Program-made: the position numbers and the translations under genes
In this document: positions 2 to 7,987 of the stretch, one piece after another
How positions within the stretch are numbered: the first letter of the stretch is position 1
Layout of the letters: each line of letters begins with the position of its first letter
Notes under the pieces: generated by a model
The model's database searches: none
What the model saw: the letters and a program-made list of their open reading frames with translations, nothing else
Told to the model about the DNA's origin: nothing
Source: an uncultured Bacilli bacterium
GTDB taxonomy: Bacteria > Bacillota_I > Bacilli_A > RF39 > UBA660
DNA: 32,278 nucleotides
Assembly (NCBI GenBank): GCA_947624955.1
Contig: CANQMM010000013.1
Location: 1-32,278 of the forward strand
Direction: 5' to 3'

Positions 2-1168
2 ATCGACCTAAAGTGTGTGATTAAAGAATTTGCTGTAATTTCAAGGAAAAATAAGAAAAAGATAACAAAATTTGCTTCCGGTGGTGGCGATGGTGCTGAA
101 GTAATTTATGCACTTCGTAATAGTGGTGCCTTATCTAGGAAGATCGCTAATGAATTAGAAACTGAAGGACAGAATGTAAGAAAGTTCTATCAAAGAAGAT
201 TACCTAGTGATCCTAGTAAAGATTATTATTTTATTATGAGAGATACTCCTAATACGGAAGCTATCATTGTAGAATATGGATTTTTAGATAGTACCGGGGA
301 CGATGTCAATCAACTAAAGAATAATTGGGAGAAATATGCTGAGGCAGTTGTAAGGGGACTTGCTAACTATTTAGGAGTAGTTTATGTACCACTTGAAGGT
401 AGTGGATATTACGTTGTTAAAAAAGGTGATTCTTTATGGAGTATTGCTAAAAAGTATGGAGTTACAGTAGCAGCATTAAAAGAATTAAATAATTTAACAA
501 GTAATTCTTTATCAATTGGGCAAACACTTAAAATACCTGGTAATGAAGAAGGAGAAACTCCTAGTGATGAATATATCAATTACCAAGTAAAAGTGGGAGA
601 TACTCTATATGGTATTGCTAATAAATATGGAGTAACTGTTAATGAATTATTAAATTATAATAATTTATCTTCAACTAATTTAAGTATTGGGCAAGTAATA
701 AAAATACCTAATACTATGGCAAATGTTTATATTGTTGTAGCTGGTGATAGTCTTTATAAGATAGCAAATAAGTTTGGAGTTACGGTCGATGAAATTAAGA
801 AAGCCAATAACTTGAATAGTAATTTATTAAATATTGGACAAAAGTTAATTATTCCTAGTAATGGTAATGATGATAGTAGTGGGTATACAGTAGTTGCTGG
901 AGATAGTCTATATTCAATAGCTAGAAAATATAACACGACAGTAGATGCAATTAAATCTTTAAATGGTCTTACTTCTAATACTTTAAGAATAGGCCAAGTG
1001 TTAAGGATACCTGGTAAGAGAGATTATATAACTTATACTGTTAAAGCCGGAGATAATCTTTATCGGATAGCTCAAACTTATAAAACTACGGTTAGTGAAA
1101 TAATTAAGTTAAATAATTTAACTACAAGTAATTTAGTAATAGGTCAAACTTTATTATTACCTGATTAA
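2..1168 (+). CDS. N-acetylmuramoyl-L-alanine amidase (Amidase_3), 5' end missing, with five LysM repeats
   Basis: Peptidoglycan amidase that cuts the bond between N-acetylmuramic acid and the stem peptide; the LysM repeats hold it to the wall. The frame is open to the left edge, so the N-terminus (signal peptide, first zinc ligands) lies outside the window; the GTG at 17 is not a credible start. Counting from the codon at 17, residues 1-120 are the C-terminal half of an Amidase_3 domain: a GAEV segment near 26-29, the RDTPNTEAIIVEYGF block at 75-89, and E86 at the position of the catalytic glutamate of this family. Five LysM repeats follow at about 131-174, 188-231, 237-280, 289-332 and 338-382, each with a GDSL/GDTL/GDNL start and an IGQxLxIP-type end. 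Repeats 1 and 2 are joined by an acidic linker. The stop is followed at once by a terminator. Family call is firm; the paralogue is undetermined. Confidence 0.9.
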   Translation: MDLKCVIKEFAVISRKNKKKITKFASGGGDGAEVIYALRNSGALSRKIANELETEGQNVRKFYQRRLPSDPSKDYYFIMRDTPNTEAIIVEYGFLDSTGDDVNQLKNNWEKYAEAVVRGLANYLGVVYVPLEGSGYYVVKKGDSLWSIAKKYGVTVAALKELNNLTSNSLSIGQTLKIPGNEEGETPSDEYINYQVKVGDTLYGIANKYGVTVNELLNYNNLSSTNLSIGQVIKIPNTMANVYIVVAGDSLYKIANKFGVTVDEIKKANNLNSNLLNIGQKLIIPSNGNDDSSGYTVVAGDSLYSIARKYNTTVDAIKSLNGLTSNTLRIGQVLRIPGKRDYITYTVKAGDNLYRIAQTYKTTVSEIIKLNNLTTSNLVIGQTLLLPD

Positions 1169-1710: not shown

Positions 1711-3102
1711 CTATCTATACTCTTTTCTCATCTCTATAGGTGTCCATCCATTATTTATCCATATTCTAGAATTATTATATATTTCTATTAAATAATGTAA
1801 TATCTCAGGTGAATTTTTTTCTGTAATTTCTATTCCAAAATCTTGGAGCACTTCAATTGAAACACCTATATAAGTATTTCCTAACCTATACATATCAGAA
1901 ATTATTTTTATAATCATCTCAATAGTCTCTGTTGGTATATTTTTCTCTTTTAAATATTTTTTAAACATATTTTTAGCATCCGTTTCTTCATAATAATCAT
2001 AATTGGAATATTTAAGCAATTCTTCTAATTTAATTGGTCTTTTTTTAATTCTTTCTTGGCCTGAAATAATATCATGTAGTATATCTTCTAAATTTCGGCG
2101 CTGGAGAATTTTATGAACAAAATAGCAGTTATGATTTATATAAATTATATCTATATTATCAATTCTGTCGCAGAATAATAGGGCATTATTGGGAAAATCT
2201 AATTCATTACCATTTCCATAATATAGACTATAATAGTAATCCAAATAACTATATGGAATAACTCCATATAATTCAATCATTGATTTAATTAAATTATACG
2301 CCTTTGTATTTTCATCTACTATTTTTTGAATTTGTTTGAAATCTATCTTTTTAATAACATTATAAATATCATCAGTCATAGAAATATAAAATTTATTTTC
2401 TCTTTTGAATATAAAAACTAAACCGGTTACATATAAGAAATGGTATGTTTCCATACTTATGTTATTATCTTGAATTGTACCTTTATTTTGCATTAAATCT
2501 TTTAATAAATCAAATTCTTTATCTATAAATCTTTCTATTAAATCAGTTAATTTATCTTGATCAGTAAGAGCACTATATACAATTTCAACAAGTTCTTTTT
2601 TAGTTTTATGACTTAATCGATTAACATGTAGGAGCCCTCCTATATTTTTTAAATCCTTAACTATTAAAGTATCAAGTAACCACCTTAAATTCTTAATTAT
2701 TGGTGTATTTGCAGCATTTTCTAAATTAAATTCCTCTTCCGGCGTCATATTTTTTAATAATTTATTAATTATCTGTTTTATTTCAGTAGGTATATAATAA
2801 GAATAATGATTTCCATTGTTATAAACGAAAACAAAAAGAGATTTTACGTCTTGCTCATGAACATACATAACTTCAGAGTTTTCATAACTCATTAATTTGT
2901 CAAAATACGTTTTAGTAAAATTATCATCTTTAGATTCATTTAAACAAAATTCAAAATAATCTATAATATAATCTTTTAATTCATATATATTATTAACCCC
3001 AAATTCTTTTAACTTTTCATCAAGTAATTTTTTATCTAAAGCTTTTAATGAGGATAATAAATCTAGTTTACCTTTTTTTATTAAATATTTTTCGTACTTC
3101 AT
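1711..3102 (-). CDS. Hypothetical 463-aa protein with a Rho-N-like segment
   Basis: I do not recognise a functional family. The protein is soluble, rich in Asn, Ile, Lys and Tyr, without signal peptide or membrane segments. Around residues 160-180 there is an RLSHKTKKELVEIVYSAL stretch that resembles the short helix-extended-helix fold of Rho N-terminal domains (leucine-rich, K-K-E-L core). The C-terminus ends in NNSRIWINNGWTPIEM, resembling tails of Firmicute proteins that carry a SEC-C zinc motif, but no such cysteine motif is present here. The start is supported by AAGGAG six bases before the ATG. It lies 42 bases after the HipA-like gene and 2 bases before the UPF0158 gene, so the three are very likely one operon. 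A nucleic-acid-binding role would be only a guess from the Rho-N-like segment. Confidence 0.6.
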   Translation of the reverse strand: MKYEKYLIKKGKLDLLSSLKALDKKLLDEKLKEFGVNNIYELKDYIIDYFEFCLNESKDDNFTKTYFDKLMSYENSEVMYVHEQDVKSLFVFVYNNGNHYSYYIPTEIKQIINKLLKNMTPEEEFNLENAANTPIIKNLRWLLDTLIVKDLKNIGGLLHVNRLSHKTKKELVEIVYSALTDQDKLTDLIERFIDKEFDLLKDLMQNKGTIQDNNISMETYHFLYVTGLVFIFKRENKFYISMTDDIYNVIKKIDFKQIQKIVDENTKAYNLIKSMIELYGVIPYSYLDYYYSLYYGNGNELDFPNNALLFCDRIDNIDIIYINHNCYFVHKILQRRNLEDILHDIISGQERIKKRPIKLEELLKYSNYDYYEETDAKNMFKKYLKEKNIPTETIEMIIKIISDMYRLGNTYIGVSIEVLQDFGIEITEKNSPEILHYLIEIYNNSRIWINNGWTPIEMRKEYR

Positions 3103-3144: not shown

Positions 3145-4338
3145 TTAATCATTATTTAAAATTAGTTCTTTTAATTTATTAATTTGTCTATTTAATAAAA
3201 TACATAATTTATTAATTCGCGTATCAGAATAATTAGTTAAATGTTGATATTGATGTAATAAATCATCAAACCATTCTACTAGGCCATCTAATTTACTTAT
3301 ATCTATTCTTTTTATATTTTTAACTACTTTTATTATTTCATCGAAAGGTTTTACTTCATAGAATAATCTTCCACTACCGGAAATGTGTACTTCTTCTTCA
3401 TCATAATATTCAATATTTAAACTTTGACCATTATCAAATATAGGGGCTACATCTATCCATTCTAAAGTATTAACATCCCTTATTATACCAAAATTATTTA
3501 AATGTCTATCCTCATTCATAATTATATAATCTAAAATAAACATATTTTCAATCTTTTCACGAGCATTTTCTATATTATGTTCTTCTAATTTTTTAATATA
3601 TTCTTCATAATCTTCTATACTGTCATGTCGTTGCATATCATTTTTAATTTGATAGCAAGTAATAAGTTCTGTATCTTTAGTTATAAAACAAGGACATTTA
3701 GAAACGACAATATCTTTATAGGTATCAATTGTATATTCTACATGATTAAATCCCAATCTTTTACATATTTCACTTGCTAAAACTTCATTAAATGGTTGTA
3801 AAGTTTCATTCTTATAACCACCTTTTAATAAATATCTTATACCATTATCTATAATCCAAGCTTTTTTTAGCATTCCATCTGTCGTATTATTCGGGGTTTT
3901 TAAGGATGTTTCTTTAGTTATTTGATTACTATTAGTCGATAAAGAAGCTTCCATAAATTCTGCATAATCAAAATCATTATCAAAGAAATTGATATCGTCA
4001 TAGTAAAGGTTACTATCAATTGGTTTTAACCAATATTGATCTGATAAAGATAATCCAAAGGCTTTATCTAAAAGTTCATAAGGTGCTGTTATATTTAATC
4101 GATGTAATAATAAATCTAATTTATCACGCCATGAAGGGATACCTCTATTTTTAAACCACTCACTTAAATTAGTTCTAAAAGAAGAATCATTAATATCATT
4201 TTTAATATAAAAGTTTTTTAAAATATAGGGGGCATAATTAATATCATTAATTTCATATATTTCAGTAAAAACGCTTGTTGCAGGGTCATATTCAGCAATT
4301 AATACTTCTTTATTTTTATTCATAAGTATACATTTCAT
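3145..4338 (-). CDS. HipA-like serine/threonine kinase-fold protein
   Basis: A 397-residue member of the HipA-like kinases common in clostridia and relatives, a group distinct from the classical HipA that phosphorylates glutamyl-tRNA synthetase. An N-terminal region (about 1-106) carries the WFKNRGIPSWR and LSLSDQYW blocks typical of this subgroup. The kinase half starts near residue 157: K172 in YLLKGG fits the ATP-binding lysine, E185 a partner glutamate, N275-E-D-R-H279 with N282 the catalytic loop, and D302-N-G the metal-binding motif. All key kinase residues are thus present. No HipB-type antitoxin is adjacent; the nearest XRE gene is about 1.5 kb away and faces another gene set. A ribosome site AAGGCGGGTGA precedes the ATG and an extended -10 lies upstream. 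The substrate is unknown; I place it as first gene of a three-gene unit. Confidence 0.8.
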   Translation of the reverse strand: MKCILMNKNKEVLIAEYDPATSVFTEIYEINDINYAPYILKNFYIKNDINDSSFRTNLSEWFKNRGIPSWRDKLDLLLHRLNITAPYELLDKAFGLSLSDQYWLKPIDSNLYYDDINFFDNDFDYAEFMEASLSTNSNQITKETSLKTPNNTTDGMLKKAWIIDNGIRYLLKGGYKNETLQPFNEVLASEICKRLGFNHVEYTIDTYKDIVVSKCPCFITKDTELITCYQIKNDMQRHDSIEDYEEYIKKLEEHNIENAREKIENMFILDYIIMNEDRHLNNFGIIRDVNTLEWIDVAPIFDNGQSLNIEYYDEEEVHISGSGRLFYEVKPFDEIIKVVKNIKRIDISKLDGLVEWFDDLLHQYQHLTNYSDTRINKLCILLNRQINKLKELILNND

Positions 4339-5034: not shown

Positions 5035-5056
5035 ATAAATTGTAGAGGTGATTTGG

Positions 5057-5815
5057 ATGACTTTAGATTTTTCTAATGAAGTTAAATTGTTTATGATTTT
5101 TGATATTTTAGGTGATACTGAAAGAACTGGTCCTTTACTTTGGCATATAAATAGAAAACGATTAGAAGATATTAAAAATCATACTTTAGATTTAATAATT
5201 ATTTCTAGAATTTTAAGAAACTACTTACCATCTTATATTGATTTTGATAAGTTAACTGAATATATTATTTGTCATGATTTACCAGAAGCGATAACTGGGG
5301 ATATTACGATATTTGAAGGGGTTAGCAAAGAAGAAATAGCGCGAACAACAAATATTGCGGTTAAATTCTTACAGGAAAACTTTGGGGATATTATAAATTT
5401 TGAACATAATATTAATGCTTTTGAAAACGGTAGGGATATCGAAGCTAAAATTGCAAGAATGATTGATAAGATTCATTCGGCTACTACTTTTATAAAATAT
5501 CAAAGTGAAGCTAACGTTGATTTAAATAATCATTCTGTTATGCCAACTTTAAGAAATCACCCATTTGTTGTAGAGAAAGTATCGGAGGGGAAAGATTTGG
5601 CTGATATCTTTTACGAATTTCATTTAAGATCAGTTGATATTAGTGATGAAGAATGCGCAAAATATGGTATTAGTAGAACTGACGGTGATAAAATAGTAGA
5701 AGTTTTAAAGGAATTTGCTGCGGAAATGTATAAACAAAAATGTAATAAAACTTTATTTGATATCTATAATAAATTTCCATTAGATGCTATGAAATATAAT
5801 AGGAATAAAAATTAG
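5057..5815 (+). CDS. HD-domain phosphohydrolase (HD_3, YfbR-like nucleotidase group)
   Basis: A 252-residue metal-dependent phosphohydrolase of the HD superfamily. From the ATG at 5057 the metal-binding set is visible: H42 in KNHTLD, H73-D74 in ICHDLPEA, and D137 in MIDKIH. The CHDLPEAITGDI stretch is typical of the YfbR-type 5'-deoxynucleotidase/HD_3 branch; the exact substrate cannot be read from sequence. The C-terminal 110 residues go beyond the core domain. The ATG at 5057 is preferred over the GTG nine bases upstream because GAGGTG (5045-5050) is spaced correctly for it and overlaps the GTG. It sits close behind the tRNA hairpin with no space for a promoter. The nearby dCTP-deaminase-like genes suggest a shared theme of deoxynucleotide metabolism, an inference only. 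Confidence 0.75.
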   Translation: MTLDFSNEVKLFMIFDILGDTERTGPLLWHINRKRLEDIKNHTLDLIIISRILRNYLPSYIDFDKLTEYIICHDLPEAITGDITIFEGVSKEEIARTTNIAVKFLQENFGDIINFEHNINAFENGRDIEAKIARMIDKIHSATTFIKYQSEANVDLNNHSVMPTLRNHPFVVEKVSEGKDLADIFYEFHLRSVDISDEECAKYGISRTDGDKIVEVLKEFAAEMYKQKCNKTLFDIYNKFPLDAMKYNRNKN

Positions 5816-6247: not shown

Positions 6248-6411
6248 GTCGATAAAAAGGGCACTGACATCAATATGTTATTAGATTGGCGGTTTACAGT
6301 AATAAAGTATAACTGACAATAGCAAGAGGAACACAAACAGTGTGGGAAGCCTTTTTATTTTTTAATAATAAGAATAATTTTATCCTTAATCAGGAAGGAT
6401 CAGGGAGTTTT
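6248..6411 (+). other. Long 5' leader with potential RNA structure
   Basis: The leader can form a closing helix GCACTG (6261-6266) with CAGTGT (6338-6343) around 71 bases, an inner TTATTA/TAATAA helix (6278-6283 with 6300-6305), or instead a local ACAC/GTGT hairpin (6331-6334 with 6340-6343) followed by a T-rich tract at 6352-6362. A further hairpin, ATCCTT/AAGGAT, sits just before the ribosome site. I do not recognise a known riboswitch class. The alternative pairings would suit an attenuator, but the helices are short and AT-rich. Confidence 0.35.
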
Positions 6412-6969
6412 ATGTTAAATAGTGAAGGATTAAAAAGAGAAATTAGGGAAAAGAATATATATGTGGATAATGCTGAGGATAAAATCGGGGAAAATTTTAT
6501 CTATGTAACATTAGGTGATACTTTAAAAGTATATGATACTCCGGTTTTAGATGTTAAAGAGCCGAGTGCTACTAAGCAAATAAAAATTCCGGAGGAAGGA
6601 TTAGTATTAGAACCGAATAAGTTATATTTAGGGAGAACTAATGAATATACGAAAACTTATGGTTATGTACCACTTTTATCAGGTTTACCGGAGTTAGCTA
6701 GTATCGGAATGGAAATTCACATAACCGCCGGGTTTGGTGATAATGGTTTTGAAGGAACGTGGACTTTGGAAATTATTTGTGCTAATCCGACGAGGGTATA
6801 TCCGAATATTCCTATTGGCAAAATTTATTATTATCCTTTAGTTGGTGATTCGAGTATTGAATATCGTGGTAAATACTTTGGACAAGTTGAACCAACGGAA
6901 TCGCGAATAGCTGCCGAATATAAATTAGCTTTAACACGAAAAGAGGGGGATAAAGATGTTAACAAATAG
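6412..6969 (+). CDS. dCTP deaminase / dUTPase-fold protein, single domain, altered GRSS motif
   Basis: A 185-residue protein of the dCTP deaminase branch of the trimeric dUTPase fold. Recognisable parts in order: an MLNSEGLKREI start like MILSDxDI of Dcd, the LEPNKLYLGRTNEY segment (66-79), HITAGFGDNGFEGTWTLEI (103-121), NIPIGKIYYYPL and a C-terminal KYFGQVEP. E120 lies at the position of the catalytic glutamate (E138 of E. coli Dcd). The GRSSLARLG motif, whose Ser and Arg also belong to the active site, is here SGLPELASIG (90-99), so the Arg and Ser are lost. ATG 6412 is chosen over a GTG at 6340 because the family N-terminus aligns there and GGGAG lies just before it. It overlaps the next gene by 14 bases. 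Alone it is unlikely to be a normal Dcd. Confidence 0.75.
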   Translation: MLNSEGLKREIREKNIYVDNAEDKIGENFIYVTLGDTLKVYDTPVLDVKEPSATKQIKIPEEGLVLEPNKLYLGRTNEYTKTYGYVPLLSGLPELASIGMEIHITAGFGDNGFEGTWTLEIICANPTRVYPNIPIGKIYYYPLVGDSSIEYRGKYFGQVEPTESRIAAEYKLALTRKEGDKDVNK

Positions 6970-7987
6970 TGAAATAAAAAGACAAATGGCATTAGGCAAT
7001 ATAAGTATTAGTGATTTAAAAAGTGGGGCTTTAGACAAACCAAACAGTTGTAAAGTCAGTTTAAGTGACGAATTATATTCTTTTGATTATTCTATTGTGG
7101 AAGCAAGGGGAAACGCCTTTTATAATAATGGTGATTTTAGTGACCAACCAACATTACGAAAAGTACGAATTCCTAAAACTGGTTTGTTATTAGAACCCCG
7201 TAAAGTATATTTAGCTAAAACTGCGGAGAGTATCAAAACCAATGGTTATATTCCGGTATTAAATGGGAGAACTTCATTGTCTTTGCTAGGAGTTAGTATT
7301 GAACTTACTAGTGGGTACGCGCAAGATAAATTTGATGGGCAATTTTTATTAAGTATTATTTGTACTAAACCGACAATTATTTATCCGGATATAGAAGTAG
7401 GAAATTTAACCTTTTTTAAGAGTTTAAGTGAAAAAGACGAAGATATAGGAATGCTAAGTGGTGAAGAAATTAAGAGAAGATTTACTACTGGCGAAATTGT
7501 AATTACTCCTCAAGATCATATCGTGATAAACCCTAATTCAGTAAATTTGAGTTTAAATAAGAATATGGGGTACTATGTAGATCCAGTATTAGATTTAAAT
7601 AAGAAAAATAAAGTGGAATATTTCACTATCGCGGAAAGTGGGACAATCTTGTATCCCGACAAAATTTATTTAGCGAGGTCCAATGAATGGACAGAAACTA
7701 GTAATCTCGTGCCAATGATGAGTGGCAGAAGTTCTCTTGGTAGGTTAGGATATCACGCCCATTGCTCAGCAGGTATGGGTTCGATTGGTTACAAAGGTTA
7801 TTGGCATATGGGAATTCGGCCAACAATGCCTATTAGAGTATATGAAAATATGAAAACTTGTCAAATATATTATTTTACGGTTGAAGGGGAGATAAGTGAT
7901 ACATATTCGGGCAGTATGCAAAACGTAGAAGAAAATGATTTAGGTAGTCAATATCATAAAACACTTTCAAAAAAGTATCCTAATTAA
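6956..7987 (+). CDS. Tandem double dCTP-deaminase-like protein
   Basis: A 343-residue protein with two copies of the Dcd/dUTPase fold. Copy one (about 1-160): LEPRKVYLAKTAES, GRTSLSLLG (104-112), SGYAQDKFDGQFLLSIIC; the catalytic glutamate position is S133. Copy two (about 166-343): an MLSGEEIKRRF start, the INPNSVNLSL strand (191-200), LARSNEWTET, an intact GRSSLGRLG (257-265) and HCSAGMGSIGYKGYW; the glutamate position is G286. Neither copy therefore has the catalytic glutamate, while the preceding gene's protein has it but lacks the GRSS motif. Fused double Dcd proteins are known in bacteria, so the fusion itself is not new. The ribosome site GAGGGGGA lies in the end of the upstream gene, with a 14-base overlap, indicating coupled translation and probably a joint complex. 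Confidence 0.75.
   Translation: MLTNSEIKRQMALGNISISDLKSGALDKPNSCKVSLSDELYSFDYSIVEARGNAFYNNGDFSDQPTLRKVRIPKTGLLLEPRKVYLAKTAESIKTNGYIPVLNGRTSLSLLGVSIELTSGYAQDKFDGQFLLSIICTKPTIIYPDIEVGNLTFFKSLSEKDEDIGMLSGEEIKRRFTTGEIVITPQDHIVINPNSVNLSLNKNMGYYVDPVLDLNKKNKVEYFTIAESGTILYPDKIYLARSNEWTETSNLVPMMSGRSSLGRLGYHAHCSAGMGSIGYKGYWHMGIRPTMPIRVYENMKTCQIYYFTVEGEISDTYSGSMQNVEENDLGSQYHKTLSKKYPN

Follow-up and report, generated by a model that had tools for sequence, protein, structure and literature searches.

We analysed a 32,278-nucleotide stretch of DNA (the window), which is one whole contig (CANQMM010000013.1; C13) of the genome of an uncultured Bacilli bacterium (GCA_947624955.1; G000; 1.17 Mb, 65 contigs, 93% complete), for two coupled genes encoding dCTP-deaminase-like proteins. 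The first gene (6412..6969, + strand) encodes a single-domain protein of 185 amino acids, which we call S. The second (6956..7987, +) encodes a double-domain protein of 343 amino acids, which we call D and whose first and second domains are D1 (6956..7450, +) and D2 (7451..7984, +). The Pfam DCD profile PF22769 matched S once and D twice, with scores of 103 bits for D2, 83 for S and 60 for D1 against a cut-off of 27 bits. This agrees with a preliminary description of the DNA, made from the letters alone, which had counted three such domains in two genes and had reported the 14-base gene overlap that we also find (6956..6969, +). DCD was the only domain found by a Pfam scan of S and D, and a profile search of the 1.17-Mb genome found no DCD domains beyond S, D1 and D2. 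The trimeric dUTPase profile PF00692 matched neither S nor D nor any other part of the genome. As the start of S we favour the ATG at 6412 over a GTG at 6340 because a likely ribosome-binding site, AGGGAG, lies at 6402..6407 (+), and homologous S proteins begin at the same ML. The likely ribosome-binding site of D, GAGGGGG, is located within S (6943..6949, +).

Trimeric enzymes of this superfamily assemble each active site from motif III of one subunit and motifs I, II and IV of its neighbour (PMC12524310; PMC8961515), and DCD active sites are located at intersubunit clefts (PMC4827122). To follow these motifs, all domains were aligned with Escherichia coli Dcd taken from the MG1655 genome, and residue numbers are those of E. 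coli Dcd unless a position in S or D is named. We take GRSS to be motif II and the hairpin that carries the catalytic Glu to be motif III. Site counts refer to 19 non-redundant systems, comprising the window, 17 of the 18 loci from a species-genome scan and one further genome (G336). Mixed alignments of S and D placed S onto D2 and were left unused.

The catalytic residues are divided between the domains in the same way in every system. S has an intact base-binding hairpin with the catalytic Glu, AGFGDNGFEGTWTLE (6727..6771, +), in which A124, D128, G130, G133, L137 and E138 are present in 19/19 systems. The Glu itself is E120 of S (codon 6769-6771, +; E138 by alignment with E. coli Dcd). S also carries the C-terminal lid motif GKYFGQ (6868..6885, +), which includes K178 and Q182 and is found in 19/19 S domains and in none of the D1 or D2 domains (0/19 each). 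Altogether all 19 S domains share D128, E138, Y171, K178 and Q182, and R110, S111 and R115 are missing from every one of them, the GRSS position reading SGLPELASIG in the window (6682..6711, +). D2 shows the complement: GRSSLGRLG (D residues 257-265; 7724..7750, +) supplies R110, S111, S112 and R115 in 19/19, the catalytic Glu position is Gly in 19/19 (G286; 7811..7813, +), and D128, K178 and Q182 are gone from all 19. D1 has neither half complete. Its GRTSLSLLG (D residues 104-112; 7265..7291, +) is degenerate, with R115 replaced by Leu and S111 lost in all 19 systems; E138 is likewise lost in all of them (S133 in the window) and the lid motif is absent. Since D1 has no R115, its GRTS cannot serve as a half-site. 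S would thus be the donor of the base-side half-site, D2 that of the phosphate-side half-site and D1 a structural filler. The motif letters are those given in the preliminary description, to which the alignment adds that D128, K178 and Q182 take part in the split (S only), that S and D2 both retain Y171, and that the PNS motif is kept in D2 and degenerate in S. In systems beyond the 19, the same pattern was seen when judged by motif. GRSSxxR and the catalytic Glu occur within one chain only in two natural fusions, being otherwise split between S and D2. The residues are therefore parted along the line between neighbouring subunits, as a single D2/S site predicts.

The ratio of nonsynonymous to synonymous substitution rates (dN/dS) was 0.02-0.22 over S, D1 and D2 (0.02-0.18 for D1), so purifying selection acts on each of them. 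Because retention and loss fall on identical residues in each of the 19 systems and dN/dS is low, the split cannot be put down to chance or drift. The idea that these are decaying, functionless duplicates would suit the lack of catalytic motifs in every domain, but has a negligible probability: the dN/dS values exclude it, and the losses are complementary and identical across systems rather than scattered.

Pairing of S and D is equally constant. In a search of 145 genomes of the family, where the D query matched 7/145, the pair turned up in other genera, and one fusion was also found. Scanning 85,000 species genomes yielded 18 loci, and in each of them S is either fused to D or its immediate upstream neighbour. 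Family and order searches added G336 (the second fusion), G392, G422 and G423, giving 23 species-level systems with the window counted. In the 21 unfused systems, S is directly upstream of D, and the two genes overlap (the usual case) or nearly abut. Homologous pairs with the same motif split, which the preliminary description had proposed to search for, were thus found in 23/23 species-level genomes, and none of the S or D homologues found keeps a full site of its own. The systems from the taxon-restricted searches all fall within one family of uncultured gut Bacilli. Homologues come from metagenome-assembled genomes named uncultured Bacilli, Tenericutes, Candidatus Onthousia and Candidatus Ventrenecus, and S genes of relatives are 77-56% identical to S. 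The natural S-D1-D2 fusions are single open frames of 553 (G027/L031) and 592 (G336/L051) amino acids, with linkers that differ in length and sequence. The tree and the linkers suggest, but do not prove, two independent fusion events (p-value of the approximately unbiased test, p-AU, 0.11). With one S per D, both fusions fit a 1:1 pseudo-trimer.

Relatives in the same family form a graded series (INTERMEDIATES). A lone Dcd with both halves of the site is found in G116 and G146. G084, G362 and G390 have two adjoining one-domain genes, A and B, that are split as S and D2 are: A genes keep TLE and the lid and have GRFSLAALG or GRLSLAALG at the GRSS position, and B genes keep GRSSIGR and have Gly, Gly or Ala in place of the Glu. 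In a tree without G390, A clusters with S and D1, and B and the lone enzymes cluster with D2, with moderate support (94/72 for the grouping of D1 with S). An origin of D1 as an internal duplicate of D2 is not favoured by this tree, though p-AU does not reject it (see below). The simplest order of events would run from a lone enzyme through an A/B pair to S plus D1-D2 and then to a fusion.

Other DCD-type proteins with altered motifs were also seen. Four loci (L038, L039, L040 and L043, in G385, G337, G171 and G205) carry neighbouring Dcd genes that are paired in a different way. One copy has GRSS, the Glu and a His at D128 (TAPLGHVGC); the other has GRSS, D128 and a Gln for the catalytic Glu (LTLQ). 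The arrangement suggests a duplication of its own, split along other lines. Elsewhere in the family, L049, L050 and L054 (G114, G160 and G020), as well as G102 and G368, encode a DCD-type protein of 270-290 amino acids with GRTSFNRLG and an altered Glu position, and with a C-terminal extension in those read.

An AlphaFold2 model of D from a 19-row alignment had a mean predicted local distance difference test score (pLDDT) of 84.7 and a predicted template modelling score (pTM) of 0.82. Its best Foldseek match was the Agrobacterium Dcd structure 2R9Q, with a template modelling score (TM) of 0.68-0.71. As the match spans both domains, D1 and D2 appear to be placed much as in a 2R9Q chain. The 2R9Q sequence was reached with an approximate query, and the residues cited are those of the database entry: KSSTGR is present in domain 1 and lost from domain 2, which keeps the FFDPGF hairpin, VLE and the tail. 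Provided that 2R9Q forms its site inside one chain, the first place turns its motif II towards motif III of the second. Applied to D, this order would make the D1/D2 boundary silent, D2/S active and S/D1 silent, which matches what a composite site needs.

The profile searches also bear on the reaction. Among the nearest relatives of solved structure are the bifunctional enzymes 4XJC, 1OGH and 2QXX (profile E 2e-13 to 5.5e-11), which rank well ahead of the monofunctional E. coli Dcd (E 2e-3). D reached 105.6 with the dCTP deaminase equivalog TIGR02274 (cut-off 92.8) as the sum of its two domains, and a natural fusion reached 159, but S falls short of this cut-off (see below). NF005734 (cut-off 283) is absent from the match list of S and D, and the three-domain fusion scored 24 bits. 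The hairpin of S reads TAGFGDNGF in nearly all systems and is of the TAG[FW]xD.GF type found in bifunctional Dcd-Dut enzymes. The bifunctional nearest relatives and this hairpin make dUMP the likely product. S-D is most likely a dCTP deaminase that has a single composite site beside two dead ones and probably yields dUMP.

Thymidylate genes in the source genome include ThyX, with two Thy1 domains, and a dTMP kinase (Tmk); ThyA and Tdk were not found in this 93% complete assembly. In G392, a ThyX-like gene lies directly upstream of S-D in an operon-like arrangement (L083 3044-4303, -), and Tmk is found 2-3 kb downstream of S-D in L025 and L026. These cases are consistent with dUMP supply and too few to prove a pathway link. 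No constant neighbour gene of S-D was found across the loci compared, and a conserved gene neighbourhood was rejected, as only these ThyX-like and Tmk cases were seen. The ThyX of the source genome itself (L067 700-2124, -, on C10; 474 amino acids) adjoins the dTMP kinase and has an RHRxxS stretch in its second half only. It may be a parallel case, as ThyX sites, like those of Dcd, are normally at subunit boundaries.

The explanation that best covers the data as a whole, and that we consider probable, is a 1:1 complex of S and D that arose stepwise and has one dCTP-deaminating site. The jelly-roll domains S, D1 and D2 would fill the three places of a dCTP-deaminase trimer, with a single remaining active site at the D2/S boundary. 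D2 would contribute R-S-S-xx-R on the phosphate side and the PNS motif; from S would come the C-terminal lid, the hairpin that binds the base and E120 as the catalytic Glu. D1 would occupy the third place and close the two non-catalytic boundaries. The site would deaminate dCTP and, like the bifunctional Dcd-Dut enzymes, probably carry the reaction through to dUMP, thereby feeding the ThyX thymidylate synthase. A homotrimeric Dcd would have duplicated, the copies would have lost complementary halves, a third, dead copy would have been added, and fusion would have followed in some lineages. A composite active site built from the single and the double protein was already put forward in the preliminary description, and independent comparative evidence strongly supports it.

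Several observations weigh against parts of this interpretation. The three-domain fusion folded poorly (pLDDT 62.8, pTM 0.46; 10-row alignment), and the D2/S contact was not seen in its model. S by itself scores 63.9 with TIGR02274, below the cut-off of 92.8. That D1 derives from the S side has only moderate support (94/72), and the tree test does not reject D1 and D2 as one clade (p-AU 0.3). The genome has a dCMP-deaminase-like gene (L066), and trimeric dUTPase is present in 348/386 relatives, most pair-bearing ones included. Because most relatives have a dUTPase, S-D would be an accessory route and need not be the cell's source of dUMP. For the same reason we rejected S-D as a substitute for a missing dUTPase: neither a trimeric nor a dimeric dUTPase was found in the 93% complete source genome, but most pair-bearing relatives have one.

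The dead pockets might have a use of their own; the preliminary description suggested that the two silent interfaces could be free to bind nucleotides or other ligands. The same stepwise conversion to an obligate three-part enzyme, with the two dead pockets kept as regulatory sites for dTTP or dCTP, is a doubtful extension. If true, regulation would be parted from catalysis, where ordinary dCTP deaminases use one pocket for both.

It is unlikely that the complex of S and D is catalytic but assembled in another ring order or stoichiometry (two S per D, for instance, or the S Glu opposite the D1 GRTS), or that it acts on a different substrate, such as dUTP only. The TAG[FW]xD.GF type of the S hairpin, as in bifunctional Dcd-Dut enzymes, is compatible with such variants. 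However, R115 and S111 are absent from D1 in 19/19 systems, the fusions hold exactly one S per D, and both the 2R9Q match and the motif division of 2R9Q fit the D2 GRSS facing S.

Unlikely, too, is a nucleotide sensor or regulator, in which the composite pocket would bind dCTP or dTTP without chemistry and signal to a partner. Two of the three pockets are dead, S-D is accessory and scattered (the D query matching few genomes of the family), and proteins of the dUTPase fold are able to signal, as phage dUTPases do with Stl (PMC5593958). Against this, the catalytic Glu is invariant in S along with D128, Y171, K178 and Q182, which makes a pure sensor less likely, although the E138A mutant of E. 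coli Dcd was crystallised with dCTP (1XS4), so the Glu is not required for binding alone. Nor was a constant partner gene found that would receive a signal. The preliminary description had offered sensing without catalysis by the whole set as its alternative; the invariant E138 and C-terminal tail of S leave that option disfavoured, with a small share of the probability. Very unlikely is the reading of S and D as separate homo-oligomers of unrelated function that merely share an operon. D alone does yield a confident two-domain model, but each protein by itself misses half a catalytic site in every system, the pairing is invariable, and there are two natural fusions.

Around the S and D genes, the window encodes an HD_3-domain protein (5048-5815, +), from a family to which YfbR-type nucleotidases belong. 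Its gene lies some 600 bases before S, and a small helix-turn-helix gene sits between the two on the opposite strand. A HipA_C-like protein (3145-4338, -) matches the PADLOC candidate PDC-M03A, and beside it lie genes for a 463-amino-acid protein with no Pfam match (1711-3102, -) and a UPF0158 protein (1301-1708, -). These three genes form a possible small defence or toxin-antitoxin cluster. An N-acetylmuramoyl-L-alanine amidase-like stretch followed by five LysM repeats is encoded at 17-1168 (+). S-D as a defence system was rejected, as no PADLOC model matches S or D. A phage or mobile origin was rejected as well: among 2.9 million viral contigs no relative of D could be confirmed, and phages yielded nothing closer than distant, ordinary dCTP deaminases or dUTPases.

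The lone enzyme, the complementary gene pair, the single plus double proteins and the three-domain fusion make up a natural series in one bacterial family. This series shows a route from a symmetric homo-oligomer to an obligate hetero-oligomer by complementary loss of half-sites, with every stage present in living lineages and open to expression and assay. If the proposed complex is right, it is a single-site dCTP deaminase, with which the concerted inhibition by dTTP proposed for trimeric enzymes could be tested. A caution is that S and D would each look inactive if annotated or assayed singly. The three-part form on two genes, the natural fusions and the graded series within one family were not found in the literature searched, and no paper among the hits listed mentions 2R9Q.

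Among known systems, anti-phage dCTP deaminases have a different fold, of the zinc cytidine-deaminase type, and resemble S-D in that it too would act on dCTP. The alphaproteobacterial double-domain Dcd (PRK07559/NF005734; Agrobacterium 2R9Q) has two DCD domains per chain, placed as in the D model, and by our reading of its sequence a related split, with motifs also divided between domains. Unlike S-D, it is encoded by a single gene and carries its GRSS-like motif in the first domain rather than the second, and we know of no separate Glu-bearing partner for this family. The three-domain dUTPase of Drosophila virilis and engineered linked human dUTPase trimers are likewise pseudo-heterotrimers of three fused domains (PMC12524310; PMC4827122), but the Drosophila domains are nearly identical, and neither protein is a split single-site enzyme. 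The principle of a single split site after duplication, together with pseudo-trimers, is known from the monomeric dUTPase of herpesviruses (Epstein-Barr virus 2BSY), where duplication was followed by one composite site that joins motif III from one domain with I, II and IV from the other (PMC12524310; PMC8961515). That enzyme differs in being a dUTPase of eukaryotic viruses on one two-domain chain, with a weak overall match to the D model (TMq 0.26). The fold is shared by the homotrimeric Dcd enzymes (the bifunctional 4XJC of Bacillus halodurans, 2QXX/2QLP of Mycobacterium tuberculosis and 1OGH of Methanocaldococcus jannaschii, and 1XS1 of E. coli), to which matched domains align with a TM to target of 0.66-0.86. 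S and D2 together hold all the catalytic residues compared with these enzymes, but S-D distributes three different domains over two chains and is predicted to have one active site where the homotrimer has three.
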